A stretch of DNA of 64,000 bases from Arthrobacter psychrochitiniphilus. GTDB taxonomy: Bacteria; Actinomycetota; Actinomycetes; Actinomycetales; Micrococcaceae. The notes below the pieces were generated by a model that saw only the letters and a program-made list of their open reading frames with translations, was not told the origin of the DNA and did no database searches. The position numbers were made by a program, and so were the translations under genes. Within the stretch, counting starts at the first letter, position 1. Every line of letters begins with the position of its first letter. The stretch covers positions 172,489-236,488 of the forward strand of contig NZ_QHLZ01000003.1 of NCBI RefSeq assembly GCF_003185915.1, in the 5' to 3' direction. Below, piece after piece: positions 7,934-23,268 of the stretch.

Positions 7934-9058
7934 ATGACGTCGGCAACACTTGATAGCCCGGAAGTACTGGACGGACCCTCCACAGTGAAGGTTGCCAGAA
8001 AGCGGCCTGTGCGTGACCGCCACACCACGGACTTCATCAAGCTCACTGAAGAGGTGCGTGCTACCGGCCTCATGGCCCGCGATGTCACTTGGTATGTGAC
8101 CCGCTTCATCCGTCAAGGTATTGGCTACCTGATGGTCCTGGCACTGTTCCTGACATTGGGTCAGAGCTGGTGGCAGATTCTCACAGCCGTGCTGTTGGGC
8201 TTCATGTGCACACACACTGCCTTCATCTCTCACGATGCCGCACACCGCCAGGTCTTCGCCTCGGCTAAGAGCAATGCCTGGCTGGCCCGTATTGCCGGGA
8301 ACCTCTTTGTGGGCATGAGCTACGGCTGGTGGATGAACAAGCACGGCAAGCATCACTTGAATCCCAATAAGATCGGTGTTGACGGAGACATTGACCCCGG
8401 GGTTGTTGTGTTTGATCCCGAAAACGCAGCCAAGCGCACCGGCTTCGCTAAGTGGTTTGCCGCCCGTCAAGGGTACTTCCTCTTCCCGCTGCTGACACTC
8501 GTTGCCCTGGATCTGCACGTTGCCTCCATCAAGCGCGTGCTTGACCGCAGCGAGATTGTCCCGCAGCGCAAGGCGGAGATTGGCTTGCTGGCTATCCGCT
8601 TGGTCATCCTGCCTGCTCTCACCATTGCCTTCCTCGGTTGGGGAATCGGCTTGGCCTTCGTTGCAGTGCATGTCATGACTCTGGGCTTCTACATGGGTGC
8701 CTCCTTCGCCCCCAATCACAAGGGCATGCCGCTGGTTCCCAAAGACGTGAAGATTGACTTCATGCGCCGCCAGACCCTGATGAGCCGCAACATTTCAGGC
8801 GGCTGGTGGGTTGATGCCGGAATGGGCGGTTTGAATTACCAGATCGAACACCACCTTTTCCCCACCATGTCCTCCAGGAACTTGAAGGCAGTCCAGCCCA
8901 TGGTCCGTGCCTACTGCGCCGAGCGAAACATCACGTACACCGAAACCACCTTGAGCCAGTCGTACATGATCGTGATGCGCTATCTGAACCGTGTGGGTCT
9001 GGGCCAGCGTGACCCCTTCGAATGCCCCATCACAGCGAACATGCGCACCTCCCGCTAG
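7934..9058 (+). CDS. Membrane fatty-acid (acyl-CoA/acyl-lipid) desaturase
   Basis: 374 aa integral membrane di-iron desaturase. The three histidine boxes are intact: HDAAH at residues 100-104, HGKHH at 137-141 and QIEHH near residue 300; the Q in the third box is typical of front-end/linoleoyl-type and mycobacterial DesA3-like enzymes. Hydrophobic segments lie around residues 60-100 and 185-230. No cytochrome b5 domain is fused. ATG with AAGGAG upstream. It introduces a cis double bond into acyl chains and so adjusts membrane fluidity; a cold-response role is an inference. A repeat array follows the stop directly. Confidence 0.88.
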   Translation: MTSATLDSPEVLDGPSTVKVARKRPVRDRHTTDFIKLTEEVRATGLMARDVTWYVTRFIRQGIGYLMVLALFLTLGQSWWQILTAVLLGFMCTHTAFISHDAAHRQVFASAKSNAWLARIAGNLFVGMSYGWWMNKHGKHHLNPNKIGVDGDIDPGVVVFDPENAAKRTGFAKWFAARQGYFLFPLLTLVALDLHVASIKRVLDRSEIVPQRKAEIGLLAIRLVILPALTIAFLGWGIGLAFVAVHVMTLGFYMGASFAPNHKGMPLVPKDVKIDFMRRQTLMSRNISGGWWVDAGMGGLNYQIEHHLFPTMSSRNLKAVQPMVRAYCAERNITYTETTLSQSYMIVMRYLNRVGLGQRDPFECPITANMRTSR

Positions 9059-9067
9059 TCCCCAGCC

Positions 9068-9279
9068 GCTCCCACCCCTCGCAAGCTCACGGCGGGTCCC
9101 TCGCGGCTGTGAGCCCAAGCGCTCCCACCCCTCGCAAGCTCACGGCGGGTCCCTCGCGGCTGTGGGCCCAGCCGCTCCCACCCCTCGCAAGCTCACGGCG
9201 GGTCCCTCGCGGCTGTGGGCCCAAGCGCTCCCACCCCTCGCAAGCTCACGGCGGGTCCCTCGCGGCTGTGGGCCCAAGC
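9068..9279. repeat. Tandem array of four 53-bp units
   Basis: Four head-to-tail units start at 9068, 9121, 9174 and 9227, each beginning GCTCCCACCCCTCGCAAGCT and ending with GTGGGCCCA plus a short variable junction. They are nearly identical (first unit has GTGAGCCCA). A related single copy is at 1697-1746. The array fills the gap between the desaturase stop and the winged-helix gene. No spacers, so not CRISPR. Role unknown; each unit has a short CCCAC/GTGGG foldback. Confidence 0.92.
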
Positions 9280-9293
9280 CGTAGAGTGGGTGA

Positions 9294-10436
9294 ATGGCCT
9301 CGAACGTCACACCCGCACAGATCGCTCGGCTGCGGCTCGCCGCCCAAGGAATTTTCACAACGTCCACCAGTCCCAGTCCGGGGCCGGTGGACGTTGTGCG
9401 TTCCCTGACAGCGCTCCAAGGTCAAGACTTCCAAGGAGCCCTGTGGTCCATTGGCCTGCGCTCACCCGCAAGTACCCGCGCCAGTGTGGAGGCCGCGTTC
9501 AACAGCGGCCAACTTGTTAGGTCCTGGCCTATGCGCGGCACCTTGCATGTGAGCGCCGCCGAGGACCTTGGCTGGATCCTCTCCCTGACGGCAGAACGCA
9601 TGTACAAGAGCCTTGCCACCCGCCACCGCCAGCTGGACATTACTGCCTCGGACATCGCCCACGTGCGCGAGCTTGCCCTGGCGCTGCTGGACCGCTCAGG
9701 CGGAAAGGCCCCGCGCGAACAACTCCTAGCCGCGTTTGAGCAGGCAGGGCAATATACCAAGGCCCAACGCGGCTATCACTTCCTGTTCGTGCTCTGCCTT
9801 GACGGAACCCTTGTCCAAGGGCCCATCAACCCGAGCGGCAATGGCAACGGACAGTACTTTGTCAGCGCAAAGCAATGGATTAGGAACCCGCGGGTACTAC
9901 CACGCGAGGCGGCACTCGCGGAGCTGGGCCTGCGATATTTCCGCGGCCATGGCCCGGCAACTCTGAGAGATTTTCAGTGGTGGGCGAAGCTGACACTCAA
10001 GGACATCAACGCCGCTCTGGAGCAGCTCAAGGATCAGCTGGTCACGATCGAATGCAACGGCACACGCTATTGGCTGGCGCCGGAAACTGCGGAGCTGCTG
10101 GGCAGTAAGGGGCTGAGGGGGAGCGTTCCGGGGGCGCGCTCAGTGCTTTTGCTCCCCGGCTTTGACGAGTACCTACTCGGTTACACGGACCGCAGTGCAG
10201 CACTGGCCCCGCACCATGCGCCGCTAACTGTGCCGGGCAACAACGGGATGTTCAAGGCTACGGTGGTGACCGGAGGGCAGGTCGCCGGGACCTGGCGCAA
10301 AGCGCAAAGTGCCCCCGAGAAACAAAGGCAACTGGCCGGCGTCGTGCTGCCGGAGCTTTTTGGAGAGTTGACACCAAACCAGCACAGGGCGCTGGCGACG
10401 TCAGCTGCGGCGTATGCCCGGTGGTTAAAGCCCTGA
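9294..10436 (+). CDS. Winged helix DNA-binding domain protein (HTH_42 / PF06224-like)
   Basis: 380 aa. The N-terminal half has VDVVRSLTALQGQDFQGALWSIGLR and SWPMRGTLHVSAAEDLGWIL, typical of the winged-helix HTH_42 family that includes AlkZ/YcaQ-like DNA glycosylases. This is the larger actinobacterial branch, whose members are mostly uncharacterised; it also has RYFRGHGPATLRDFQWWAKL and LPGFDEYLLGYTDR. No membrane segment. DNA binding is likely; glycosylase activity is a possibility only. ATG 15 bp after the last repeat unit; a strong hairpin overlaps the stop codon. Confidence 0.75.
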   Translation: MASNVTPAQIARLRLAAQGIFTTSTSPSPGPVDVVRSLTALQGQDFQGALWSIGLRSPASTRASVEAAFNSGQLVRSWPMRGTLHVSAAEDLGWILSLTAERMYKSLATRHRQLDITASDIAHVRELALALLDRSGGKAPREQLLAAFEQAGQYTKAQRGYHFLFVLCLDGTLVQGPINPSGNGNGQYFVSAKQWIRNPRVLPREAALAELGLRYFRGHGPATLRDFQWWAKLTLKDINAALEQLKDQLVTIECNGTRYWLAPETAELLGSKGLRGSVPGARSVLLLPGFDEYLLGYTDRSAALAPHHAPLTVPGNNGMFKATVVTGGQVAGTWRKAQSAPEKQRQLAGVVLPELFGELTPNQHRALATSAAAYARWLKP

Positions 10437-11836: not shown

Positions 11837-13975
11837 TTAGTGGCTTGAGCTCCTGCGGCGGTTGAGCATGAACAGTGTTGCACCGGCTGCCAGCAACAGA
11901 GCTGCCAAGCCACCGATCCACACGTTCTTAGCACCAGTGCTAGCCAGATCATCGCCACCCGTGGCGGGCGCCGTAGTACTGGCCGAAGTGGTCACATCCG
12001 TTGCCGGAGTAGTCACTGTGGCCGCTGTGATAATCAACGGTGCACTAACCTGCTGCAGCTCACCATCAAAACCTTTACCGTCAATGATGATCCGGTGACT
12101 TCCCACAGGAACATTAGCCGGCAACTGCACGCTCAGCCGCACAACACCCTGAGCATCAGCAGTAGCCGTGCCCAATATCAACGGCTCCGAATGCAGCGTG
12201 AACGTTGCACTACTACCGGGCAAGAAGTTCTCACCGGTAATGACAAGCCCACCACCGGCGGCAACAGAATCGGCACTGAGATCAATCCCCGGAGTTGCCG
12301 GTTCCTGAGACGGACTCTGGCTAGCGGTGGGGCTAACCGAAGCCGTTACACTCCCAGTAGCAGTAGCAGTAGCAGTAGCAGTAGCAGTAGCGCTTGCCGA
12401 AGCACTCGGTGTAGCAGTCGCGCTTGGGCTGGCAGTCTCTGTGGGAGTTGTGTCCGGGGCGGCTTCTAACACTGTGGTGCCGAGCTTATTCCAGCCGGTG
12501 GTGCTGGGAGCGCCAGTCAACGCTAATTTGATACCGGGAGCATTGTTGCGAGTTTTGTCCACAATTGCAATGGCGAAGTCATAGCTCCCAGCGGGGACGT
12601 CGGTGGGTGCAAAAACCGTGCTGGTTGGGTAACTAGTTCCCTTGATCCAAGAGCCAGGATTAACGTCAGACTGTATCTGGTAGACAGGTTCGCCAGTGAC
12701 TTTATTCAGCAGCGCGTAGGAAACCTGGTACTTGTTATTCCACTGTGGGTTGTCGTTAGGCATCCGGCCCCAAGCCGTATTGGTCCAACTTGAGGAGACT
12801 GTGGCCTGGCGTGCGCCAAAGGGAAGAACTGAAGGCATGTTTACGGTGCCAGGTGCTAGTCGGTAGCCGCCGTTGATGGCGAAGTCCTGCACCAAGTCAG
12901 GGTTGTCAACTACCCAAGTTTTCACGTCAGGCTCGTGGCGCAGATCCAAGTAGTTGGCGTGCAGTTGCTTGGCGTCGGCTACAACTCGCTCCAGCATGGG
13001 GCGGTAGGGCTTGGCTCCGGGGACCTTGAAGCTATCATCGCAGGAAGTCTCCCTGATAGTGAAGTTCTGGTAGCAGTTTTCCCCCACCAAAATGGTGTTC
13101 GGGAAGCGTGAAGAAATAGCATTTTTTTGATCCTGAGGGAACCACAGGGTGCTGCCCAAGCTATCGCGGCGCATGATGGATCCCTTGGCGATCTGCTGAT
13201 CCAATTCTGTGTAGCTGAAGGCCGGAGCGAAGTTCAGCGCCAGTAGAACATGCGAGAAGGATTTGCGGTAGAGGTTACCCAACCATTGCAGGACCGGTTC
13301 GGCGCCAGCCGTGGGTCCAGCTTGGTAGTTGTGCATTTCTCCCCAATGCCCAATGGTGTTCGTATCGACAAAATCGACCTCTTCGGGATTATCAAAGCGT
13401 GCACCGAAGGCGGCCATGAAGTTCTCGAACTTGGCCCGGAAGATTGCATTGTTCGCATGCGGGGTTTTGAACGATGAATTTGAGGGGGCGCCGTAGCCTG
13501 TGGCTCCCGCATCGAAAACGAACTGGGGTGTTGCCTGTTGGTGGGTATCCTGGCTATCCACAAAAACTCGGAAAGCGAGGCGTTGGCCGTGGTCTTTGGC
13601 CTGCTTAATGAAGGATTTGAAGTTCTCGTCTACATCCCAAGCGTATTTCCCTTCCGCGGGTTCTAGACGTGACCACGGGATGCGCAGATATACCACGGAA
13701 GACGCAGCAGAGTTTGGTCCAACCTCGCCCCAAAATGCGTTGGCGTCTGCCAATGCGTGGTCAAACTCTTCGGCGTACGCCATCCAGCCCATACCCGGGT
13801 TGCGCAGGACGCTTGTCTCATCGCGTTCTGGAGTTAGTGCAGACATGGTGGCTGTTGCGGGGGGAGCTGTTGAGTCAGCCAGCGTCGATGGGACGGCTAC
13901 AGCAGCCTGCATGAACGAGCACGATATCAGGACGGCTGTCAGTGCTCCAGCCGCCTTCAAAAAGGGACGTTTCAT
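11837..13975 (-). CDS. Secreted, sortase-anchored glycosidase-like protein (DUF4874/DUF4832-like)
   Basis: 712 aa. Sec signal peptide at residues 1-30 (MKRPFLKAAGALTAVLISCS... AVA cleavage region). Residues about 50-400 look like a glycosidase-type TIM barrel: NPGMGWM, VVYLRIPWSRLEPAEGKYAW, then IGHWGEMHNYQ with a candidate acid/base Glu, as in DUF4874/DUF4832 proteins. A beta-rich domain follows (about 400-510), then a Ser/Thr/Ala/Pro linker encoded partly by a hexanucleotide repeat, an Ig-like domain, and a C-terminal LASTG motif, hydrophobic helix and RRR tail, matching sortase E sorting signals. It lies downstream of a sugar importer on the same strand (104-bp gap), so a role in releasing imported sugar is inferred; activity is unproven. 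Confidence 0.75.
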   Translation of the reverse strand: MKRPFLKAAGALTAVLISCSFMQAAVAVPSTLADSTAPPATATMSALTPERDETSVLRNPGMGWMAYAEEFDHALADANAFWGEVGPNSAASSVVYLRIPWSRLEPAEGKYAWDVDENFKSFIKQAKDHGQRLAFRVFVDSQDTHQQATPQFVFDAGATGYGAPSNSSFKTPHANNAIFRAKFENFMAAFGARFDNPEEVDFVDTNTIGHWGEMHNYQAGPTAGAEPVLQWLGNLYRKSFSHVLLALNFAPAFSYTELDQQIAKGSIMRRDSLGSTLWFPQDQKNAISSRFPNTILVGENCYQNFTIRETSCDDSFKVPGAKPYRPMLERVVADAKQLHANYLDLRHEPDVKTWVVDNPDLVQDFAINGGYRLAPGTVNMPSVLPFGARQATVSSSWTNTAWGRMPNDNPQWNNKYQVSYALLNKVTGEPVYQIQSDVNPGSWIKGTSYPTSTVFAPTDVPAGSYDFAIAIVDKTRNNAPGIKLALTGAPSTTGWNKLGTTVLEAAPDTTPTETASPSATATPSASASATATATATATATGSVTASVSPTASQSPSQEPATPGIDLSADSVAAGGGLVITGENFLPGSSATFTLHSEPLILGTATADAQGVVRLSVQLPANVPVGSHRIIIDGKGFDGELQQVSAPLIITAATVTTPATDVTTSASTTAPATGGDDLASTGAKNVWIGGLAALLLAAGATLFMLNRRRSSSH
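12355..12390. repeat. Hexanucleotide microsatellite (CAGTAG)6 in coding sequence
   Basis: Six perfect copies of CAGTAG on the plus strand encode alternating Ala-Thr on the minus strand, within the wall-spanning linker of the surface protein. Copy-number change would alter linker length in two-residue steps without shifting frame. Confidence 0.9.
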
Positions 13976-14079
13976 AATCTTCCTATCTGTTATATTTCAG
14001 GTGAACCACGCCGATTGAACCAAGAGTCACTGGAGCACCAGCTAAGGGAATCGCATCGCTTTCGCAACGGAGATATCTG

Positions 14080-14847
14080 TTAGGTAGTGGAGAAAAGTTG
14101 GCATGCAGTGGAGGCGGCCAGTGGCAGTTGGGTCGTGTCTACTTCCCAGCGATCCCGTGCCTCCCAACCAAGATCTTCAAGTGCGTTTTTGGTGTTCCAA
14201 CGCTCCGTGGAATCAAGAGAGACGCCGTGGTAAATACCAAAGCCCGGGGATCGGTTCAGTGCTGCGTCGATCAGTGTCAAAAGATCTCCGGTGGAGAGCC
14301 ACGTGTGAGCGTACTGCCGCTCTATCAAAGGCCAGCCGGTCAAACCAAGTCTGAGGCAGGAAACTGCGTCACCTTGTGCGTCTTGATGAAGGCGGGCCAA
14401 AGCCTCCACGGCGATTTTGCTTGCACCATAGGAGCAACAGGGACGTGGTGCATGGGCCGGATCAATGTGGTGAACTCCGTCCCGGTAGTCCAAACCGGTG
14501 GCATGAATGGAACTCGCAATCACCAGCTTCCGTACAGCAAATTCTCGTGCCGCGCTGAACAGATGGCTCATCATTGAGACGTTGCCAAACGCCTCCCCCA
14601 CCGAGGCGGCAGGGGAGGCGTTGGCAGCCAGGTGGAGGATTGCGTGGCAACCCTCCACCGCAGACCGGGCGAAGTTTTGATCGGCGAGATCACCGACCAC
14701 TACCTCGTCTTCTGTCTCAAAAATGGCCGGGTACGGATCGAGAACGGTTCTGGTGGTGATTCTGATCCGGTAGCTACGGCGCAATTGCTCTAGCAGTAGA
14801 CGTCCCACCGTGCCATTTCCTCCAGTGAGGAGAAGAAGAGGTTTCAA
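14080..14847 (-). CDS. NAD-dependent sugar/uronate dehydrogenase-like SDR (epimerase family)
   Basis: 255 aa extended short-chain dehydrogenase. N-terminal nucleotide site LLLTGGNGTVGRLLLEQL, then CHAILHLAANAS, VIASSIHATG and the catalytic SYGASKIAVEAL (Tyr-x3-Lys). From VIASSIHATG to LGWEARD it tracks uronate dehydrogenase (Udh) closely, e.g. the YAHTWLSTGDLLTLIDAAL segment. Udh oxidises the anomeric carbon of hexuronates to aldaric lactones. Here the partners are a lactonase and galactonate dehydratase, so oxidation of galactose to galactonolactone is an attractive alternative. Starts 19 bp after the upstream permease gene, so part of the importer operon. Family firm; substrate inferred. 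Confidence 0.72.
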   Translation of the reverse strand: MKPLLLLTGGNGTVGRLLLEQLRRSYRIRITTRTVLDPYPAIFETEDEVVVGDLADQNFARSAVEGCHAILHLAANASPAASVGEAFGNVSMMSHLFSAAREFAVRKLVIASSIHATGLDYRDGVHHIDPAHAPRPCCSYGASKIAVEALARLHQDAQGDAVSCLRLGLTGWPLIERQYAHTWLSTGDLLTLIDAALNRSPGFGIYHGVSLDSTERWNTKNALEDLGWEARDRWEVDTTQLPLAASTACQLFSTT

Positions 14848-14866
14848 CGCTAAGGCTTCCTTTCGA

Positions 14867-15811
14867 TTACTTGCTAATACCCACTGTCATTCCTTCAACA
14901 ATGCGCCGGCCCAACCAAATGAACAGGGCCAGAACGGGGGTGACTACCATGACAATGCCAGCGAAGAGCCCGCCCCAATCGGCGCCATTGAATTGTGCCT
15001 GATCAAGGAAGGCCAACAGGGCGATCGGCAGTGTCCGGTTTTCTGACGTGGTCAGTAGTACCAGCGAGAACAAGGTTTCGTTCCAGCCGCTGATGACAGC
15101 CAGCATAAACGCGGTGACCAAACCAGAACGAGCCAAAGGAAGCACGATCTGGATAAAGGTGCGTATTCCGGAGGAGCCGTCAATAGCAGCGGCCTCCTCT
15201 ATTTCTACTGGCAACGAACGGAAGAACCCAGCCAGCAGGAACACGGTAAAAGGAATACCGAGCCCCACCATCACTAGAATTAGCCCTTGAATACTGTTGA
15301 TCATCTTCAGATGGGAGATGTCCTGAAACTTGGCCATCATGATATAGACAGGGACCAGCAGAACCTGACCGGGAACTCCCAGACCCAGCACAAACAGCAG
15401 GGTGAATGTGGAGGAGAGTTTACGGGTTGACTTGGCCAATACATATGCCGCGGGTGCGGCAATGGCAACCACCAGGAGCGAAGAAATTAAGGTGGCAATG
15501 ACCGAGTTAATGGCGGCTGTGCCAAACCCCCCGGTATTCCATGCAGTGCTGTAGTTTTCCCAGAACGGGACCGCTGGTATACCCAGCGGGTCCCGAGCAA
15601 TATCCCGCGTGTCACGTATGGAAGTGAGTACCATCCAGACCAGAAGGAAGATATTGAAAGCTACCAGCAGCCACACCACTGCCCTGCCCACGTAGCCGCC
15701 GAGGCTAATTCGGTCCTTCCGTGAGGACCTGCGCCGTGTGGGTGTCTTTGGAGTGTGGGAGGCCTTCGCCGTTTCAGTTCGAAGCGGGGGCTGAGTTATG
15801 ACTTGGTTCAC
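14867..15811 (-). CDS. ABC sugar transporter permease, MalG-type
   Basis: 314 aa inner-membrane protein of the carbohydrate-uptake 1 family, six predicted membrane segments after a basic cytoplasmic N-terminus (PTRRRSSRKDR). The EAA loop that docks the ATPase is present as EIEEAAAIDGSSGIRTFIQIVLPL. It pairs with the MalF-type permease 17 bp upstream and the binding protein before that. No ATPase gene occurs in the cluster. Oxidoreductase gene follows 19 bp after the stop. Confidence 0.88.
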   Translation of the reverse strand: MNQVITQPPLRTETAKASHTPKTPTRRRSSRKDRISLGGYVGRAVVWLLVAFNIFLLVWMVLTSIRDTRDIARDPLGIPAVPFWENYSTAWNTGGFGTAAINSVIATLISSLLVVAIAAPAAYVLAKSTRKLSSTFTLLFVLGLGVPGQVLLVPVYIMMAKFQDISHLKMINSIQGLILVMVGLGIPFTVFLLAGFFRSLPVEIEEAAAIDGSSGIRTFIQIVLPLARSGLVTAFMLAVISGWNETLFSLVLLTTSENRTLPIALLAFLDQAQFNGADWGGLFAGIVMVVTPVLALFIWLGRRIVEGMTVGISK

Positions 15812-15828
15812 GAATTCAACCTTGCTTC

Positions 15829-16779
15829 CTAGATTTCAACGGCGTCGCGACGCAACATGCGGCGCAGCCCGATGGTGAGAACAGTGACGAGAACCAAGCT
15901 GACAATTGCTGATGCGGCAGAAATACCAAACTCACGATCGCCACCGCTGCCAAACGCCGCCTGGAAGACGTACAGGGCTGTTGACCAGGTGCTCGTGGGC
16001 GGTGGTTTTGCTGTGGAACCGCCGAAGACCAAAATCAGCTCAAAGACTTTCACTGAACTCATGGTCCACAAGACGGCACACACAGAAATAACATCCCAAG
16101 CAAGCGGAAGCGTCACGTGACGGAACTTGGTCCAAGGACCAGCGCCGTCCAGTCCGGCTGCCTCATAGTAATAGGCCGGGATTTGGTCCACAGCGGACAT
16201 GATGATGGTGGTGAAGTAGCCGGTGGCACTCCAGATCATCACGATCATGATCATGTTGAATAGATTGTCTTGAGCCAGCCACTTGGGCGGATCCTGAACG
16301 CCTACCAGCAACAAGAGTTTGTTGACAGGGCCAGAAGGGCTGAAGAGGAAACCGGCAAAAATACCGAAGACCATGGCATTGATCAACGTAGGAAAGAACA
16401 AAACGCTGCGAACAAACTTCTTGCCCATCATGTCCCGCAGGATCATGGTTAGGCCAAAAGCGAAGACAAACGTCACGATTCCAACAATGAAGAGAATCTT
16501 CAAGGTGTTAATGATGGATCCAATGAAGACCGGATCCTTAGATAGCCGGATGTAGTTATCCAGGCCTACCCACTTGAGCTCGTTAATCCCATCCCATTCA
16601 TTAAGGCTCAACCAGCCAGCAAAAATGATAGGAACGAGGTAAAACAAGATCATGAGGATCAGTGCTGGTGCCAACATTGGCCAGAACAGCCGTCGCCGGC
16701 TGCGTTCAATTGCGGACATGCCGGCACGTGGGCGTGCAGTGTTGCGCCCACGTGCCAGCGGAAGAACAGGGGTAGCCAT
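15829..16779 (-). CDS. ABC sugar transporter permease, MalF-type
   Basis: 316 aa, six predicted membrane segments. EAA loop YYYEAAGLDGAGPWTKFRHVTLPL near residues 205-228. Starts 3 bp after the stop of the solute-binding lipoprotein gene. Forms the heterodimeric channel with the following MalG-type permease. The context (sugar-acid catabolic genes on the divergent arm) points to a monosaccharide or small oligosaccharide substrate. Confidence 0.88.
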   Translation of the reverse strand: MATPVLPLARGRNTARPRAGMSAIERSRRRLFWPMLAPALILMILFYLVPIIFAGWLSLNEWDGINELKWVGLDNYIRLSKDPVFIGSIINTLKILFIVGIVTFVFAFGLTMILRDMMGKKFVRSVLFFPTLINAMVFGIFAGFLFSPSGPVNKLLLLVGVQDPPKWLAQDNLFNMIMIVMIWSATGYFTTIIMSAVDQIPAYYYEAAGLDGAGPWTKFRHVTLPLAWDVISVCAVLWTMSSVKVFELILVFGGSTAKPPPTSTWSTALYVFQAAFGSGGDREFGISAASAIVSLVLVTVLTIGLRRMLRRDAVEI

Positions 16780-16782
16780 CAG

Positions 16783-18096
16783 TTAGCCCTTGGCGTTCCA
16801 GTAGGCCACCATCGCGGACTTTGCTTCCTTGACATACTGCTCTGCTGTGAGCTTGCCCAAGAAGAGCTTCTCGAAGCTTGCGTTGAAGCCCTTGTCAGTG
16901 ATGTCACCGGAGACTCCATCGTTGGGGAGCCTGGTGGGGTTCTCAGCCAGGATGGTGGCAACGTCCTTCAAAGTGGCGGGAGCTTCGACATCGGGGCGAG
17001 CAGAGAGGTTGTTCGCTACCGAGGAGATCTGGCCCATGCGGTCCTTGTTAGCGAAGTAGGCAATGAACTGCTTTGCTGCATCGGTGTTCTTGGCCTTCTT
17101 CGGCACTGCAAAGCCGAAGGCGATGGAGTCGTTAGCTGTAGAGGACGTTGCCGTAGTGGTGGGGAAGTTGAACGCGCCGTACTCAAAGCCTTCTGCGGCG
17201 TACTTTCCGGTTTCTGCCGGAGCCCAGCTACCCATCAGGTAGTAGAGGGCCTTGTTGGAAGCCCATGCGTTCTGCTGTTCAGGGTATTTGGAAGCGTCGT
17301 AACCCTTGATGATGTAGCCACTCTTGATGAGTTCTTCGATTTGCTTTGCAGTTTTCAGCACTGCGGGATCATCAAAGGATGCACCGGTCTTGTCTTCAAC
17401 CAGCTTGGCGAAGGAACCGTCACCTGCATTGCGGTTCATCAGGTAATCAAACCAGTAGCTGTTGGCCCAGGTTGCGTCACCATCTGAAGCGATGCAGGCA
17501 ATGTCAGCGGCTAGTGCTTTCTTGCAGTTATCCAGCAATTCGTCCCAAGTCTTGGGCGCGTCGGGAGCAACCTTGTTGGCCTTGTTGTAAAAGACTGACA
17601 CGTTAGAAATGGTGTACGGCACCATGTAGGTTTTCACATCGCCACCATAGGTGGGCAGAACATCGAAGTACTTGGCCGGAATGACGTCGCCAACGGTTTT
17701 GCCGTCTTCGCCGGGGACGGACTCTTTGAGTACCGGGGCAAGATCTTCAAGCTGGTTTGTCTTTGCCAGGGTCGGGCCGAGGCCGTCGTAAGCCTGGTCA
17801 ACAAGGTCTGGGACATCGTTGGAGAGCAGGCCGGCAGTGACTTTGTCCAAAACCTTGCGCCCTTGCCACTGAACGTTGACCTTGATCCCAGTGTCCTTCT
17901 GGAAAGCATCTAGGGAGGTCTTCAGGACCTCAGCCTGAGGCTCGGTCTCTGTCCACATGGACCAGTAGGTCATTGACTTCTCGCCGTCGCCACTGCTTAC
18001 AGCGTCGGTGGTGGTGCATCCGGAAGCCGTGAAAGCGACTGAAGTTGCCAAGAGGGCGCCGGTGGCGAGTTTAAGCCAAGGCTTAATCTGAGTCAT
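16783..18096 (-). CDS. ABC sugar transporter solute-binding lipoprotein
   Basis: 437 aa. N-terminal lipoprotein signal with basic start, hydrophobic core and ASGC box near residue 27, so anchored on the outer face of the membrane. The mature part is a family 1 extracellular solute-binding protein: MTYWSMWTETEPQAEVLK, VNVQWQGRKVLDKV, MVPYTISNVSVFYNKA, ALYYLMGSWAP. It captures the sugar for the two permeases that follow. First gene of the minus-strand arm, with a promoter-like sequence 60-95 bp upstream and the catabolic arm diverging on the other side. Specificity is not readable from the sequence. Confidence 0.88.
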   Translation of the reverse strand: MTQIKPWLKLATGALLATSVAFTASGCTTTDAVSSGDGEKSMTYWSMWTETEPQAEVLKTSLDAFQKDTGIKVNVQWQGRKVLDKVTAGLLSNDVPDLVDQAYDGLGPTLAKTNQLEDLAPVLKESVPGEDGKTVGDVIPAKYFDVLPTYGGDVKTYMVPYTISNVSVFYNKANKVAPDAPKTWDELLDNCKKALAADIACIASDGDATWANSYWFDYLMNRNAGDGSFAKLVEDKTGASFDDPAVLKTAKQIEELIKSGYIIKGYDASKYPEQQNAWASNKALYYLMGSWAPAETGKYAAEGFEYGAFNFPTTTATSSTANDSIAFGFAVPKKAKNTDAAKQFIAYFANKDRMGQISSVANNLSARPDVEAPATLKDVATILAENPTRLPNDGVSGDITDKGFNASFEKLFLGKLTAEQYVKEAKSAMVAYWNAKG

Positions 18097-18158
18097 GGAG
18101 TGTCCTTCAAAGTAGTTGTGTGAGTCAGCCTCTGCAACATCGCTCGGCTTGTGCTGTG

Positions 18159-18189
18159 AGTATAGTCACAAGATACAGTAAGTTGTCAA
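18159..18189 (-). promoter_or_regulatory. Putative promoter of the ABC importer operon
   Basis: On the minus strand, TTGACA (complement of 18184-18189) is followed after 19 bp by TATACT (complement of 18159-18164), about 62 bp before the binding-protein start. Spacing is slightly long. By eye only. Confidence 0.5.
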
Positions 18190-18266
18190 ATATAATTACA
18201 CAGTTACAAAAGTGAATCCTCTTGTATGGATAACATCTCCCGAGGCGGTTACAATCACCATGTAAG

Positions 18267-18283
18267 TGTCAATTCTTTTGACA
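18267..18283. promoter_or_regulatory. Candidate operator in the divergent sugar-acid intergenic region
   Basis: Inverted repeat TGTCAATTCTTTTGACA (6-bp arms, 5-bp centre) lies between the importer and galactonate dehydratase genes; another TGTCAA occurs at 18184-18189. TTGACA within it could also be a -35 for the plus-strand arm. The ROK regulator encoded at 22020 is the obvious candidate ligand-responsive binder; this is inferred. Confidence 0.45.
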
Positions 18284-18408
18284 ATTCTTGATCTGGTGAG
18301 CCCAGAATGCCACATTCTGTGCCCGCCAGTGAGGACTGGCCGCACAAACTGGCCGTGCGAACTGTCCGCGCGGGCAGGACAGAAGCTCTTCTGACTAAGG
18401 GAATATGC

Positions 18409-19554
18409 GTGAAGATTACTAAGATAGAGACCTTTCAAGTTCCCCCACGCTGGTTGTTTCTCAGGATGGAGACTGAGAGCGGATTGGTGGGGTGGGGTGA
18501 ACCCATTGTTGAAGGGCGCGCCGAAACAGTTGCGGCGGCAGTGGCTGAGATGTCTGACTACCTCATTGGCGAGGACGCCTCCACTATCGAAGACCATTGG
18601 CAGGTCCTGACTAAGGGTGGCTTCTACAGGGGTGGGCCTGTTCTTTCCAGTGCGGTGGCGGGGATTGATCAGGCACTGTGGGATATCAAGGGCAAAGCCT
18701 TAGACGTCCCTATCTATGAATTGCTGGGTGGTCCCGTGCGAGAGAAGGTACGCATGTATACCTGGATTCAAGGTGCCAGTCCGGAGGAACTGGCCAATTC
18801 CACCCGTGAAGCCATGGCTGAGGGTTTCACAGCAGTGAAATTCTGCCCGGCTGGCAAGCTGGCCCCTCTTGATACGGCAGCGAGCATTCGCAAAATGGTG
18901 AAATCACTGGCCGCTGTGCGCGAAGCAGGTGGCGAGGAACTTGACATCGCTTTGGATTTCCACGGCAGGTTCAGCCCGGCCATGTCCCGCCGGGTGCTGC
19001 CCCTCATGGAAGAATATTTGCCCATTTTCGCCGAGGAAGTGCTGGTTCCGGAACTCTCAGGTGATTTGTCCCTTATTGCTCAAGGTACATCCATACCGTT
19101 GGCGGTTGGCGAACGCCTCTACTCCCGCTGGGACTTCAAAACCGTTTTGGGTAAAGGTGTCAGCGTGGTCCAGCCAGATTTGAGCCACGCTGGCGGTATC
19201 TCTGAAGTGCGCAGGATTGCAGCCATGGCGGAAGCATACGGTGTTCAATTGGCGCCGCACTGCCCGTTGGGCCCCATTGCGCTTGCCGCGAGCCTGCAGG
19301 TTGACATTGCCAGCCCGAATTTCCTGCTTCAAGAGCAGAGCAGGGGTTCCGGGTATCAGGAAGGCCCGGACCTTTTTGACTACCTAGAGGAGCCAGAGGT
19401 CTTCAATATGGGAACCGGTTACATTGCTCGGCCAGTAGCCCCCGGGCTGGGTATCGGAATTGATGAAGAAAAAGTCCGGCATGCCGCGTTGAACCCGCAT
19501 CGCTGGCGCAACTCCATCTGGCGCCAAAATGACAACTCTTTCCTTGAGTGGTAA
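18409..19554 (+). CDS. dgoD: D-galactonate dehydratase
   Basis: 381 aa from the GTG at 18409 (MKITKIETFQVPPRW), with AAGGGA upstream; the open frame back to 18307 is not needed and this start gives the length of E. coli DgoD. Enolase superfamily enzyme converting D-galactonate to 2-keto-3-deoxygalactonate. Metal ligands Asp183, Glu209 and Glu235 and acid/base residues His185 (LDFHGR) and His284 (LAPHCPLGP) are all present. GFYRGGP, QPDLSHAGGI and a C-terminus ending DNSFLEW also match the family. One oddity: the usual EEP after the second ligand is EEV. First gene of a plus-strand operon. Confidence is high because resemblance runs end to end. Confidence 0.93.
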   Translation: MKITKIETFQVPPRWLFLRMETESGLVGWGEPIVEGRAETVAAAVAEMSDYLIGEDASTIEDHWQVLTKGGFYRGGPVLSSAVAGIDQALWDIKGKALDVPIYELLGGPVREKVRMYTWIQGASPEELANSTREAMAEGFTAVKFCPAGKLAPLDTAASIRKMVKSLAAVREAGGEELDIALDFHGRFSPAMSRRVLPLMEEYLPIFAEEVLVPELSGDLSLIAQGTSIPLAVGERLYSRWDFKTVLGKGVSVVQPDLSHAGGISEVRRIAAMAEAYGVQLAPHCPLGPIALAASLQVDIASPNFLLQEQSRGSGYQEGPDLFDYLEEPEVFNMGTGYIARPVAPGLGIGIDEEKVRHAALNPHRWRNSIWRQNDNSFLEW

Positions 19555-19557
19555 GCC

Positions 19558-20478
19558 ATGCCTCGTGAACTAACAGCGGTCTGCTTAGGTGGTCCTCGAG
19601 CGGAACTGGGTGAAACGCCTAGGGTTGATTCACGCACGGGTAAACTCCTCTGGACGGATATTACTGGCGGATTTGTCCATGTGGGTGGGGTAGTCGGAGA
19701 CAGTTTTGAGTTAGAGCGCACCCTAGCCGTGGAAGGCATGGCCGGCCCGGTTACACCCCTGCCGGGGGAGGGTGCCGGCTGGGTGATGGCGCGTGAGAGC
19801 GAACTCGTTCACCTCGCCCAAGACGGCACAAGGTCAGTACTCGCCGAGCCGGAAGCCAACCGCCCAACAGCCTTCAATGACGGCGTAGCTGACACAGAAG
19901 GCAACCTGTGGGTCGGTTCCATGAGCAGAAACGGTGCCGCGGGACAGGGAAGGCTGTGGCGCTTTGACTCCAGCGGACATGGCACAGTGGCGCTGGGCGG
20001 GATCGGGATCTCCAACGGGCTGGACTTCACCGCGGATGGTCGCAGCGCCTACTACGTCGACACCAGTGCACGGACCCTACGCCACTTCGACATTGACCCG
20101 CGCACGGGGATCCAAGGTAGTACTACCCTTGTTTCGTTCGCTCCAGAAACAGGAGACCCAGACGGGCTGGTGGTGGATAACGATGGCTGCATTTGGGTGG
20201 CGCTGTGGGATGGGTGGGCGGTGCACAGGTATTCGCCCAAGGGTGAGCTTTTGGACGTAGTCCAGGTCCCGGCAGCCCGCCCAACAGCGGTAGCGCTTGT
20301 AGGGAATCTGTTGGTTATCACCAGTTGTAGCGGCTGGCTTGATGAAGGCTGGGAGCAAGAGAGCCCTGATGCCGGGAAGCTGTTCGGTGTCAACGTTGCT
20401 GTCTCCGGGCCCTCAGCACGGCCTTACCGTGGCCCCCTGAAAATCTCCCTCCAGAACGATCAAGAAAAGAAAAGATGA
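19558..20478 (+). CDS. SMP-30/gluconolactonase family sugar lactonase
   Basis: 306 aa six-bladed beta-propeller of the SMP-30/LRE family. Ligand positions typical of calcium/zinc lactonases: the early Glu in AELGETPRVDSRTGKLLWTD, Asn in RPTAFNDGVADTEGNLWVGSM, Asn in GISNGLDFTADG and Asp in GDPDGLVVDNDG. It opens aldonolactones to the acid; here it would supply galactonate for DgoD from the lactone made by the oxidoreductase at 14080. Starts 3 bp after dgoD; its stop overlaps the kinase start (ATGA). Specific lactone is inferred from context. Confidence 0.85.
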   Translation: MPRELTAVCLGGPRAELGETPRVDSRTGKLLWTDITGGFVHVGGVVGDSFELERTLAVEGMAGPVTPLPGEGAGWVMARESELVHLAQDGTRSVLAEPEANRPTAFNDGVADTEGNLWVGSMSRNGAAGQGRLWRFDSSGHGTVALGGIGISNGLDFTADGRSAYYVDTSARTLRHFDIDPRTGIQGSTTLVSFAPETGDPDGLVVDNDGCIWVALWDGWAVHRYSPKGELLDVVQVPAARPTAVALVGNLLVITSCSGWLDEGWEQESPDAGKLFGVNVAVSGPSARPYRGPLKISLQNDQEKKR

Positions 20479-21380
20479 TTGATGTAGTAGCTGTGGGCGA
20501 AACCATGGCTGTGGTTACCCCGACCTTGGCTGAGCCACTGGAAATGGCCTCCGGCTTTTCAGTGGAGACCGCTGGGGCAGAATCGAACCTTGCCCAGTGG
20601 CTTGCAGATTGGGGGCACAGCGCTGCCTGGGTCAGCCGGGTTGGCAATGACCCGCTGGGTCGGAGAATAGTGCGGACGCTGAAAAATCATGGCGTTAACA
20701 CCACCTATGTAAGCGTGGATCCGCAGGCACCCACCGGTGTGATGTTCAAAGACCCCGGAATAAACTCAACCACCGTGCACTATTACCGTAAGAATTCTGC
20801 TGCTGCACTCATGGGCGCTGGCACGGTGGAATCTCTGCCGTGGGGATCGTTTCGTCTCCTACACCTCACCGGCATCACCCCCGCGCTGTCAAGCTCGTGC
20901 GCGGCCTTGGTCCAGATGCTCTTTGACCGGGCCAAGCGAGAGCGCGTACCGGTGTCCTTCGATGTCAATTACCGGCCGGGGCTTTGGGGTGTCCAGGACG
21001 CACAGGCGGTTCTACTGAACTATGCACGGCAAGCTGATTACACCTTCGTTGGATTGGATGAAGCACAGGTACTGTGGCCAGGACTCGGATCCGCGGACGA
21101 TGTGCGCGAACTGATTCCAAATGCGGGGACGCTGATTATCAAAGATGGAGCCCTAGGAGCTACTGAGTTTAACAGCCAAGGCTCCACCTTCGTCCCGGCG
21201 CCGCTTGTTCAGGTGGTCGAGGCAGTGGGTGCTGGTGATGCGTTTGCGGCGGGTTACCTTTCTGCCGTACTCGAAAATGGACAGGCCCTCGAGCGGTTGC
21301 AAAGAGGACATCAATTCGCGGCGCGGGCGCTCGCCAGTACCCTTGACTTTCAACCCTCGAGTAAAGAAGGCAGTAAGTAG
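20475..21380 (+). CDS. PfkB-type 2-keto-3-deoxy sugar-acid kinase (KdgK-like)
   Basis: 301 aa ribokinase-fold enzyme. N-terminal VVAVGETMAVVTP, AGAESNLAQWLADWGHSAAWVSRVGNDPLG, and the C-terminal PfkB signature VVEAVGAGDAFAAGYLSA with catalytic Asp in GAGD. It resembles 2-dehydro-3-deoxygluconate kinases and in this operon should phosphorylate 2-keto-3-deoxygalactonate at C6. This replaces the unrelated DgoK kinase of the enterobacterial pathway. Start overlaps the lactonase stop by 4 bp, and its stop overlaps the aldolase GTG. Confidence 0.85.
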   Translation: MIDVVAVGETMAVVTPTLAEPLEMASGFSVETAGAESNLAQWLADWGHSAAWVSRVGNDPLGRRIVRTLKNHGVNTTYVSVDPQAPTGVMFKDPGINSTTVHYYRKNSAAALMGAGTVESLPWGSFRLLHLTGITPALSSSCAALVQMLFDRAKRERVPVSFDVNYRPGLWGVQDAQAVLLNYARQADYTFVGLDEAQVLWPGLGSADDVRELIPNAGTLIIKDGALGATEFNSQGSTFVPAPLVQVVEAVGAGDAFAAGYLSAVLENGQALERLQRGHQFAARALASTLDFQPSSKEGSK

Positions 21381-22030
21381 TGAGTAATCAGTTCTTTGAC
21401 CAGATGTTCGCCAGCACCCCCGTCATGGCAATTTTGCGAGGCTTAGGAACACAGCGAACCCTGGAAGTAGCCACTATGGCGTGGAATCTTGGCGTGACCT
21501 CGGTGGAGATACCCATCCAAACTACTGAAGACCTCAAAGCGCTGAAAGCGCTGGCCTTGGCCGCTGAAGATCGCGGACTGGTGGTGGGCGCAGGAACGGT
21601 ACTCAACCGCACCCACGTAGAACAAGCTAAGGACGCTGGTGCGGCATTCACCGTCAGTCCTGGCGTGAACGTGGATGTGATCCAGGCATGCGCCGATGCT
21701 GGTTTGGCTCACTTGCCCGGAGTGGCTACCCCCAGCGAGATCCAAGCGGCCATGAGTCAGGGCCTGGAATGGGTCAAAGCCTTTCCCGCTAGTGTGTTGG
21801 GAGTGGACTGGCTAAAAGCCATGGGAGGGCCCTTCCCCGGCATTAAGATTGTTTCCACCGGCGGTATGGACGCCCACAATGCCCGTAGCTTCCTGCTCGC
21901 AGGAGCCCGGGTTATTGCAGTAGGATCCGCATTGGAAGATCCACAACAACTTGGACAGCTTGCGGAGCTGATGCGCGAAAGGGCTGACATGCCTGAAACT
22001 CTTTCAACGGATAGCAATAATGGTCACTGA
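21380..22030 (+). CDS. 2-dehydro-3-deoxy-6-phosphogalactonate/gluconate aldolase
   Basis: 216 aa class I aldolase of the Eda/DgoA family, length as expected. Schiff-base Lys in WVKAFPASVLG, catalytic Glu in GVTSVEIPIQT, plus GAGTVL, FTVSPG and HLPGVATPSEI. It cleaves the phosphorylated keto-deoxy acid to pyruvate and glyceraldehyde 3-phosphate. GTG start overlaps the kinase stop; the last 11 bp overlap the ROK gene. The DgoA-like role is assigned from DgoD in the same operon. Confidence 0.88.
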   Translation: MSNQFFDQMFASTPVMAILRGLGTQRTLEVATMAWNLGVTSVEIPIQTTEDLKALKALALAAEDRGLVVGAGTVLNRTHVEQAKDAGAAFTVSPGVNVDVIQACADAGLAHLPGVATPSEIQAAMSQGLEWVKAFPASVLGVDWLKAMGGPFPGIKIVSTGGMDAHNARSFLLAGARVIAVGSALEDPQQLGQLAELMRERADMPETLSTDSNNGH

Positions 22031-23216
22031 AGGGGGCTCTCTGAAAGGGCTTCGAGCCACTAACACCCGTCAAATGGTGGAGTTGTTATTGATTGACGGC
22101 CCGCTCCACCGGGCCGAGTTGGCTCGGCGTATACGCACATCGCGAACAACCATCACCAACATCACCAATGAGTTGTTGGAGAGAAACGTGGTGCTGAACC
22201 TCAAACCTGAGCAAAAAGCGACTCGCGGGGGGCACGAACTAGTAGCTATCAACCCGTTGGCAGGGTTTAGTCTTGGCATTGATTTCACTCTTGAGCAGGT
22301 CGCCATTAGCGCCTCTGACCTCTCCGGAAATACGGTGTCAGAAACTATCTTCGCGGTGGATGCGCAGAGCACTGCCGAATCACGGGTTGTGGCTGCTGCT
22401 TCTGCGCTGGAAACGTTATTGGATGAGGCAGGTATTGACGGCACCAAGATCGTGGGGGTCGGTGTAGGTGTTCCGGGACAAATTGACAGACGCACCGATA
22501 TGGTTGGCGTTTCCCTCCCGGGACAGCCATGGTCAAAGCTAGATGTACGCAGTATTTTGGCCCACCATCTGCCCTACCAGATTTTTGTGGAAAACAATTC
22601 ACGCTTGGAAGGCTTCGCTGAAAAACGGTGGGGTGCCGGCCAGCACAGTGCGAATGTCTTGTACTTGAGTTTTTCCAGCGGAGTGGGCATGGCGTTGTTC
22701 GCGGAAGATCAGCTCTTTCGAGGAAGTATTGGCGCGGCCGGGGAAATTGGACACATGTCCACAGACATCAACGGCGCAACCTGCCCCTGCGGCAACCGTG
22801 GGTGCTTGGTGCTGCGCACAGGAACGGCCCATGTGCTGTCATTGTTGAGTCCTGTCTTGGGAGAGAATGCGGACTGGGCGCACGTGCTGGAGGAGACCAC
22901 AAGGTCTAATCCCAGCTGTCTGGCAGTCCTGGACGAAGTTGGCGCCGTGGCGGGCCGGTTCTTGGCGGGGATTGCCAATTTGCTCGATCCAGAGCTAATG
23001 ATCATTGGCGGCGAGCTTGCGCAGGCGGGGGAACCGTTCATGGCTCCGCTCATAGCAGCCCTGAAAACTCATACACTCCCGCTGACAAGTTCTCACGTCG
23101 CCGTGGTACAGGCTGCTTTGCCTCCCGGTGCAGCAACAGGTGCCCGGGGTGGCGCTGCGCTGGCCATCATGGAAATGGCAAAAACGTCAACGATTGACAC
23201 ATTGGGATATCTCTAA
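22020..23216 (+). CDS. ROK family transcriptional regulator
   Basis: 398 aa. N-terminal winged helix (about residues 10-65: LLLIDGPLHRAELARRIRTSRTTITNITNELLE), then a ROK sugar-kinase-like domain with GVGVGVPGQID, SFSSGVGMALF and the zinc motif GHMSTDINGATCPCGNRGCLVL. The residue after the last Cys pair, often Glu in ROK repressors, is Leu here. The 11-bp overlap with the aldolase gene makes it the distal gene of the dgo operon, so probably a sugar- or sugar-acid-responsive autoregulator of both arms. Confidence 0.88.
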   Translation: MVTEGGSLKGLRATNTRQMVELLLIDGPLHRAELARRIRTSRTTITNITNELLERNVVLNLKPEQKATRGGHELVAINPLAGFSLGIDFTLEQVAISASDLSGNTVSETIFAVDAQSTAESRVVAAASALETLLDEAGIDGTKIVGVGVGVPGQIDRRTDMVGVSLPGQPWSKLDVRSILAHHLPYQIFVENNSRLEGFAEKRWGAGQHSANVLYLSFSSGVGMALFAEDQLFRGSIGAAGEIGHMSTDINGATCPCGNRGCLVLRTGTAHVLSLLSPVLGENADWAHVLEETTRSNPSCLAVLDEVGAVAGRFLAGIANLLDPELMIIGGELAQAGEPFMAPLIAALKTHTLPLTSSHVAVVQAALPPGAATGARGGAALAIMEMAKTSTIDTLGYL

Positions 23217-23268
23217 GGCCCACTGAAAAATCTCACCAGTACCGGAACCGCGCATTACTCAGTGGGCC
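23217..23268 (+). terminator. Possible terminator of the dgo operon
   Basis: GGCCCACTGA (23217-23226), directly after the ROK stop, pairs with TCAGTGGGCC (23259-23268); 10 bp perfect but with a 32-nt loop, partly inside the end of the opposing small gene. Confidence 0.4.

Follow-up and report, generated by a model that had tools for sequence, protein, structure and literature searches.

Does Arthrobacter psychrochitiniphilus carry, in one place, the genes for a complete oxidative route from galactose to pyruvate, and if so, which enzyme takes the first step? The question is raised by an island at positions 11,837 to 23,216 of a 64,000-nt stretch of contig NZ_QHLZ01000003.1 (the whole analysed stretch is called the window below), where genes for a D-galactonate dehydratase (DgoD), a lactonase, a sugar kinase and an aldolase diverge from genes for a sugar transporter and a short-chain dehydrogenase/reductase (SDR) resembling uronate dehydrogenase (Udh). 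The reading that we favour, with a probability of roughly 65%, is a spread catabolic island of nine genes with an optional tenth, which would convert a free aldose, most likely galactose, into pyruvate, and in which the SDR would be a descendant of Udh acting on a neutral sugar. The island itself is real, conserved, horizontally spread and of the De Ley-Doudoroff type. The ten open reading frames (ORFs) of the initial annotation were all found in the ORF list of the window with the coordinates and strands given there, forming two divergent operons, and Pfam and NCBIfam searches agreed with every family assignment:

11837..13975, minus strand: wall-anchored glycosidase-like protein, 712 aa, secreted (weak DUF4832 barrel and sortase motif)
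14080..14847, minus strand: Udh-like SDR, 255 aa, TTG start, candidate aldose 1-dehydrogenase (PF01370)
14867..15811, minus strand: ATP-binding cassette (ABC) sugar permease (Pfam/NCBIfam)
15829..16779, minus strand: second ABC sugar permease (Pfam/NCBIfam)
16783..18096, minus strand: sugar-binding protein of the ABC transporter (SBP_bac_8/SBP_bac_1)
18184..18200, no strand: operator-like inverted repeat TGTCAAATATAATTACA, with counterparts in loci L036 and L037
18267..18283, no strand: operator-like inverted repeat TGTCAATTCTTTTGACA, with counterparts in loci L036, L037 and L035
18409..19554, plus strand: DgoD (PRK14017), D-galactonate dehydratase of 381 aa, with a GTG start chosen by comparison with orthologues
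19558..20478, plus strand: SMP-30/gluconolactonase-type lactonase (PF08450)
20475..21380, plus strand: PfkB-family sugar kinase, candidate 2-keto-3-deoxygalactonate kinase (PF00294)
21380..22030, plus strand: KDPG/KDPGal-type class I aldolase (TIGR01182)
22020..23216, plus strand: ROK-family regulator with an N-terminal helix-turn-helix-like stretch seen by eye (Pfam/NCBIfam)
23217..23268, no strand: 15-nt inverted repeat directly 3′ of the ROK gene, a possible operon end

Read from the shared intergenic region, the minus-strand operon consists of the binding protein, the two permeases, the SDR and the glycosidase-like gene, while adjacent genes of the plus-strand operon (18409-23216) are either spaced by 3 bases or overlap by 1 to 11. 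For DgoD, the ATG at 18307 in the ORF list was corrected to the GTG at 18409, which is most likely the start by comparison with the orthologues.

Among 245 genomes of the family, close orthologues of the SDR were found in three others, all from the genus of the window (G052, G113 and G202, with 75%, 73% and 61% identity), and all remaining SDR matches among those listed had at most 37% identity. There are four further island loci. Their sources are Arthrobacter sp. E3, Arthrobacter sp. H35-D1 (L036), S7A_St_54, which is an Arthrobacter metagenome-assembled genome (MAG), and a record that bears the name Sporosarcina beigongshangi REN13; the other three loci are L035, L037 and L045. Nine genes, all but the glycosidase-like one, have identical order and divergent layout in all five islands, partly judged by eye in the MAG; as the SDR was the query by which the loci were found, the comparison is silent on islands lacking it. 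Since the nine genes recur in order in four other loci, the grouping of the ten genes in the window is not due to chance. The glycosidase-like gene is the least conserved member, and only the window has a complete copy: in E3 the first matching residue is 44, in H35-D1 the match is split across two contigs (maybe an assembly break), in the MAG it is spread over three frames with no significant match to residues 1-133, and REN13 lacks the gene. The conserved unit is thus the nine genes, with extracellular hydrolysis as an optional extra at best, and the proposed coupling of the pathway to such hydrolysis is correspondingly weak.

In the route that we propose, the binding protein and two permeases, powered by an ATPase encoded elsewhere, would bring in a free aldose (most likely D-galactose), which the Udh-like SDR would oxidise at C1 to the lactone with NAD(P)+. 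The SMP-30 protein would open the lactone, DgoD would convert galactonate to 2-keto-3-deoxygalactonate, the PfkB kinase would phosphorylate C6, and the KDPG-type aldolase would yield pyruvate and glyceraldehyde 3-phosphate. The ROK protein would probably repress both operons via the two TGTCA-N7-TGACA-like intergenic sites. All these enzyme activities are predicted from sequence, with strong family and residue evidence for DgoD and with family assignments for lactonase, kinase and aldolase. They support the De Ley-Doudoroff-type route put forward in the initial annotation, with the SDR as candidate first enzyme. As the kinase and the phospho-aldolase need a C6 hydroxyl group, the chemistry of the pathway speaks against L-arabinose and D-fucose as substrates.

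By its sequence, the dehydratase belongs to the galactonate dehydratases, scoring 560.6 bits on PRK14017 (cut-off 311) with 50.7% identity to E. coli DgoD. Every metal and acid/base position checked is kept, as had been stated before, among them D183, H185, E209, E235, H285 and E310 of the E. coli enzyme. The bifunctional gluconate/galactonate model gave only 231.2 bits against a cut-off of 750, and the glucarate and talarate/galactarate dehydratase models 19.4 and 96.7 bits, both far under their cut-offs. The lactonase has motifs beginning at residues 18, 106, 152 and 200, which presumably form its metal site. The kinase has a GAGD motif from residue 252, and its best models are those of 2-keto-3-deoxygluconate (KDG) and 2-keto-3-deoxygalactonate (KDGal) kinases, with 154.3 and 140.3 bits, below the cut-offs of 440 and 400. 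The aldolase scores 159.9 bits on TIGR01182 (cut-off 156.05) and 131.1 bits on the KDPGal subfamily model PRK09140 (cut-off 207), and retains the Schiff-base Lys133 as well as Glu45.

The SDR has the Udh fold and the catalytic Ser-Tyr-Lys, in common with AtUdh (3rft and 3rfv) and the C. salexigens structure 3ay3. Its closest solved sequences are uronate dehydrogenases, the best five Foldseek rows for its model (predicted local distance difference test, pLDDT, 89.1) are Udh structures with 26-29% identity, and VIA gave Z scores of 28.5-29.8 for Udh structures versus 26.6 for the next. In AtUdh numbering, computed from the 3rft alignment, Asn112 is replaced by Ile or Val and Arg174, which we take to hold the C6 carboxylate, by Gln in all five island SDRs; the window protein reads ASSIH where Udh has ASSNH, and has Gln178 at the place of Arg174. 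Because both residues are replaced, the island SDRs have no obvious holder for a charged C6, and with both positions changed in five out of five, activity confined to uronic acids looks unlikely. A further difference from AtUdh lies at its Asp34, at the end of strand 2, where Thr-Thr-Arg stands in four of the five island SDRs and Ala-Ala-Asp in the fifth; Asp is found in all 13 related SDRs readable there. In Rossmann folds the residue at the end of strand 2 bears on the preference for NAD or NADP, and Thr-Thr-Arg is therefore a hint at NADP+ in the four proteins. PMC4476818 describes the Asn, numbered 111 there, as stabilising the carboxyl group, and five Udhs as about a thousandfold less active on glucose and galactose than on uronates. 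A partial literature search, covering titles and the beginnings of abstracts, gave no report of a Udh-type galactose dehydrogenase or of such an island. With Ser-Tyr-Lys kept and the usual C6-anion anchor absent, the SDR is a candidate galactose 1-dehydrogenase.

Loss of the anchor is not confined to the island. We examined 65 SDR loci. Four are the islands, six came from the family search, and 55, mostly the higher-scoring ones, were taken from 107 places listed in a class search in which 90 of 296 genomes had an SDR match. In eighteen loci from other genera, position 112 is Val or Ile and position 174 is not Arg but Gly (17 loci) or Gln (one). A DgoD/ManD-like dehydratase, with at least 386 bits on a model of our own, was found in 16 of these 18 anchor-less loci (all but L075 and L076) versus none of 42 Udh-side loci, of which the best reached 206 bits (L118) and the next 155 (Fisher p 1e-12). 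After removal of the five loci whose dehydratases had trained the model, 11/13 remained (p 6.5e-10). In the tree, a branch with 100/97 support separates the island SDRs, the 18 relatives and L074 from AtUdh and all Udh-side SDRs. L074, from family f23, has Val112 and Arg174 and no such dehydratase in its 15 kb, and L039 and L040 combine Ile112 with Arg174; because the latter two fall on the Udh side, Ile112 alone does not mark the clade. So far the clade has been seen in Actinobacteria, namely in the family of the island, in family f26 (17 loci) and in family f35 (one locus). Two different enolase-superfamily dehydratases lie near the SDR in L077, L080, L082, L090-L093 and L095, one with 535-562 and one with 396-421 bits on our dehydratase model.

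We read this pattern as a Udh-derived clade of putative neutral-aldose dehydrogenases, recruited for galactose in the island, and the island SDR is probably a neutral-aldose member of the Udh family with this wider clade behind it. The fuller proposal is more tentative, and we put it somewhat short of an even chance: a new actinobacterial Udh-family clade would have dropped the C6 anchor, its members would be neutral-aldose 1-dehydrogenases paired with DgoD/ManD-like dehydratases, and the island would have built a full route around one of them, a new type of galactose dehydrogenase that is possibly NADP-dependent, and would have spread between strains as a unit.

Several observations weigh against these interpretations, in part through the clade and in part through the island. 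The anchor-less loci are not independent, as 17 of the 18 come from f26 and genome G333 gave two; within f26 itself the contrast persists, with the dehydratase present in 16/17 anchor-less and 0/5 Udh-side loci (L099, L106, L111, L118 and L124). The island SDR is 31-40% identical to nine of the 18 relatives, none of the 18 loci has a PfkB, SMP-30 or KDPG-aldolase match, and six partner dehydratases from five loci, three of them trimmed, score 149-298 bits on the DgoD model (cut-off 311), so that the partners are not DgoD proper. Ten neighbouring ORFs from three of the loci are regulators, an ABC ATPase, two-component-type kinases, proteins with domains of unknown function, or have no match. 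For the island, the adverse points are that the host already covers free galactose with Leloir genes, that the aldolase has, at the Thr161 site of Eda, the Thr of the E. coli enzyme and not the Val of DgoA, and so gives no sign of galacto-specificity there, that an Arg lies one place before the Arg174 column in some SDRs, and that the SDR gene sits in the transporter operon and not beside dgoD.

The first two of these points serve the alternative that survives best, although we consider it unlikely: the same pathway, working on something other than free D-galactose, either through a broad aldose SDR that takes glucose as well as galactose, or on a modified galactose that the Leloir kinase refuses. 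A galK gene above its cut-off, with galT alongside by eye, forms a Leloir locus on another contig, beside which a second galactose route looks redundant. The Thr in the aldolase, which the Haloferax aldolase also has, would permit KDPG too, the related SDRs adjoin dehydratases of uncertain specificity, and no intracellular glycosidase is present among the ten island genes. The DgoD scores, high on the galactonate model and low on the bifunctional one, nevertheless imply at least the galacto epimer. The island is thus either a second galactose route or one for a sugar form outside the reach of the Leloir enzymes.

Much less probable is a genuine uronate dehydrogenase in an island for galacturonate, which the fold and the nearest solved structures of the SDR would fit. 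UdhOg, in PMC4476818 the sole Udh with Ile in place of the Asn, still acts on uronates; it does so poorly there, and perhaps has another natural substrate. Also in favour are L039 and L040, with Ile at the Asn site, Arg174 kept and a place on the Udh side of the tree, and the Arg one place ahead of the Arg174 column in three of the five island SDRs (the window, L036 and L037, with Gln there in L035 and L045), which leaves some room for an anchor shifted by one residue. Both anchor positions are, however, replaced in all five, the clade of the island SDRs lies apart from AtUdh, and the island dehydratase is a DgoD that stays far under the glucarate and talarate/galactarate cut-offs.

Slightly less probable still, we rate an SDR outside the pathway, with the island importing galactonate or its lactone and starting at the lactonase or at DgoD. 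The SDR is indeed encoded with the transporter, dgo operons, that of E. coli among them, naturally serve sugar acids, and the presence of the SDR in all five islands is no evidence of need, the islands having been found through it; against this, the transporter is a sugar-type ABC system, and a sugar-acid dehydratase lies near 16 of the 18 SDR relatives outside the island. A substrate carrying a C6 phosphate or sulfonate, as for Haloferax Azf or in the sulfofucose pathway, is hardly credible: among NCBIfam models the SDR scores best on the Azf equivalog NF041293, and the dehydratase of the sulfofucose pathway shares the Pfam families of DgoD (PMC12421959), but the score of 101.7 bits is far under the Azf cut-off of 400, the contacts N116, H117, H186 and R193 of the Azf model (PMC8506132) are set against an island SDR in which Ile/Val and Gln replace the Asn and Arg of Udh, SfcH belongs to PF13561 (PMC12421959), and the kinase would be purposeless.

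We therefore return to the nine-gene route starting from a neutral aldose, most likely galactose, and to its place among known systems. A De Ley-Doudoroff-type galactose pathway has reportedly been demonstrated in Haloferax volcanii. The Haloferax locus (L056), with DgoD, KdgK2, a KDPG-type aldolase, Gfo6 and a beta-galactosidase, shares with the island the DgoD, a PfkB-family kinase (annotated as 2-dehydro-3-deoxygalactonokinase), the KDPG-type aldolase and ABC transporter genes nearby, and differs in having a Gfo/Idh/MocA dehydrogenase, an IclR regulator and no SMP-30 protein annotated in the stretch shown. L057 and L058, from Streptomyces plasmids, and L176 and L188 resemble the island in having DgoD, which is in all four, and ABC permeases; PfkB is present in L058, L176 and L188 (L057 has an annotated sugar kinase), SMP-30 in L057, L176 and L188, the aldolase in L058, L176 and L188, and a ROK protein in L057. 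The candidate first enzyme of L057 and L058 is a classical PF13561 SDR, in contrast to the Udh-like PF01370 protein of the island, and L176 and L188 combine a classical SDR, 53-57% identical to those of Streptomyces, with the core set of the island (SMP-30, PfkB, aldolase and DgoD). Alpha-galactosidases occur in L058 (two) and L176 (one), each time along with a transporter. Because such DgoD-core loci with other dehydrogenases exist, the island represents a known pathway type that differs only in its candidate first enzyme. The E. coli dgo operon (dgoR, dgoK, dgoA, dgoD, dgoT) shares the DgoD and aldolase families, but uses DgoK and a galactonate symporter, and has neither dehydrogenase nor lactonase. 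A parallel for the SDR is Azf itself, a Udh-like SDR turned to another substrate; it was modelled in PMC8506132 to bind glucose 6-phosphate via Asn, His and Arg, whereas the island SDR lacks the Asn and Arg of Udh.

The initial annotation had also considered a PfkB kinase in place of DgoK as unusual, which did not hold. No DgoK match (PF05035) was obtained in the genome of the window, in a search that detects DgoK in E. coli and Caulobacter. In the order, 62 DgoD places were listed in 50 of 297 genomes. We examined 38 of these, all outside the genome of the window, with tblastn at a threshold of E 1e-8, counting the best match at each place. The kinase was PfkB in 16/38, DgoK in 6/38 and neither in 16/38, and PfkB kinases are also found in Haloferax; we have accordingly rejected the replacement as a novelty. 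None of the 38 loci had an island-type SDR.

The description of the island as self-contained was likewise overstated, as there is no ABC ATPase among its ten genes and the Leloir locus lies on another contig. A single MalK-type OB domain was found in the genome, again on another contig. For regulation, the island ROK protein is the obvious candidate binder of both inverted repeats. The operator pattern had three strand matches in the window versus 0.18 expected, and 0/100 shuffles reached three, although the pattern was drawn from the window sites and this count is thus no independent test. Two comparable sites each were seen in L036 and L037, and one in L035. Genome-wide, the pattern had 20 strand matches at 15 places (four matches for the reversed-pattern control). 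Five of the 13 places outside the island were inspected, and all were inside script-called ORFs, none of which was a sugar gene as judged from the first residues, so that a wider ROK regulon is not supported. At one place with the pattern (L218), a GH15-type-looking ORF follows at a distance of about 1.5 kb, separated from the site by one other gene.

In the window, the island has the gene for aspartate-semialdehyde dehydrogenase (ASD) on its left and that for dihydrofolate reductase (DHFR) on its right, about 12 kb apart. Of 22 other genomes of the genus, nine have a gap of 31-1074 bp here, measured between tblastn matches; for the remaining 13 the fetched locus does not include the pair and is uninformative on adjacency. 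G202 is among the nine and has its island on another contig, and in G052 about 130 kb separate the island from the DHFR gene. The island has a GC content of 55.9%, compared with 60.6% and 59.4% on its two sides, and we read this as insertion of the island between two housekeeping genes. No direct repeats were found within either of the two island-end stretches, and no integrase was seen by eye among the ORFs listed around the island. In Arthrobacter sp. H35-D1, a transposase-like gene was noted by eye about 4.5 kb past the island ROK gene (L036:14488-15768). A plasmid origin was rejected, since a tblastn search of 72,556 plasmid records with the SDR gave 338 records with a match, none with at least 60% identity. 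The REN13 record (L048, contig NZ_JADHDY010000009.1) groups with the genus of the window, its DHFR, ThyA and ASD being 89-92% identical to those of the window, and its species label is probably wrong. Further to the left in the window, an ORF of short repeats (AHGGSLAAV..., RRVPRGCG...) at 9022-9408, between desaturase and AlkZ-like genes, resembles by eye a repeated element more than a gene.

The optional tenth gene encodes a surface-anchored protein, with a sortase anchor NF058582 at 29.5 bits (cut-off 27) and an LASTG motif at residues 677-681. The protein consists of a barrel, a Ser/Thr-rich linker, an Ig-like domain (by eye) and the C-terminal sortase motif. The DUF4832 match of 28.8 bits is just below the Pfam cut-off of 29.2, and a sequence search found no solved structure (best E 0.8). 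The barrel model is weak (pLDDT 55.8, predicted TM-score, pTM, 0.51); with it, Foldseek placed GH35 beta-galactosidases first, from E 3e-7 with TM 0.30-0.37, while the best VIA match was a beta-amylase (Z 14.4), with GH42 up to 13.3, so that the matches include enzymes of clan GH-A as well as other barrels. Such a model allows a guess at the level of the clan (GH-A), and galactosidase activity of the wall-anchored protein is possible. Glu213 is kept in 4/4 rows reaching it and Glu299 in 3/3, making these the candidate catalytic residues, with uncertain strand assignment; in clan GH-A the acid/base Glu follows strand 4 and the nucleophile Glu strand 7. Relatives were found in 6/245 genomes of the family and 8/296 of the class, and the Pfam DUF4832 model matched 2/346 genomes of the phylum at E 1e-8. 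One relative of 33-36% identity (L166, G473:C1:2223001-2243000), from a different family of the order, has two sugar ABC permease matches at a distance of 2-4 kb, partly judged from first residues. In L167 (G039:C11:11001-29000), a distant DUF4832-like protein stands beside GalE-like and polysaccharide-synthesis-like proteins, as judged by eye. This neighbourhood fits the link made in PMC7112168, which places DUF4832 among the accessory genes of Pel polysaccharide clusters, with no assigned function.

What is unusual in the island is thus its Udh-like SDR; the pathway itself is known and the kinase is ordinary. If the SDR acts as proposed, another protein family would join the enzymes that start oxidative galactose breakdown, and a uronate dehydrogenase would have turned to neutral sugars through a change of its C6 anchor. 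A sequence rule (no Asn112, no Arg174 and a dehydratase nearby) would then allow re-annotation of actinobacterial genes now named 'NAD-dependent epimerase/dehydratase', and the SDR would provide a candidate NAD(P)-linked galactose dehydrogenase of different ancestry for assays and engineering.

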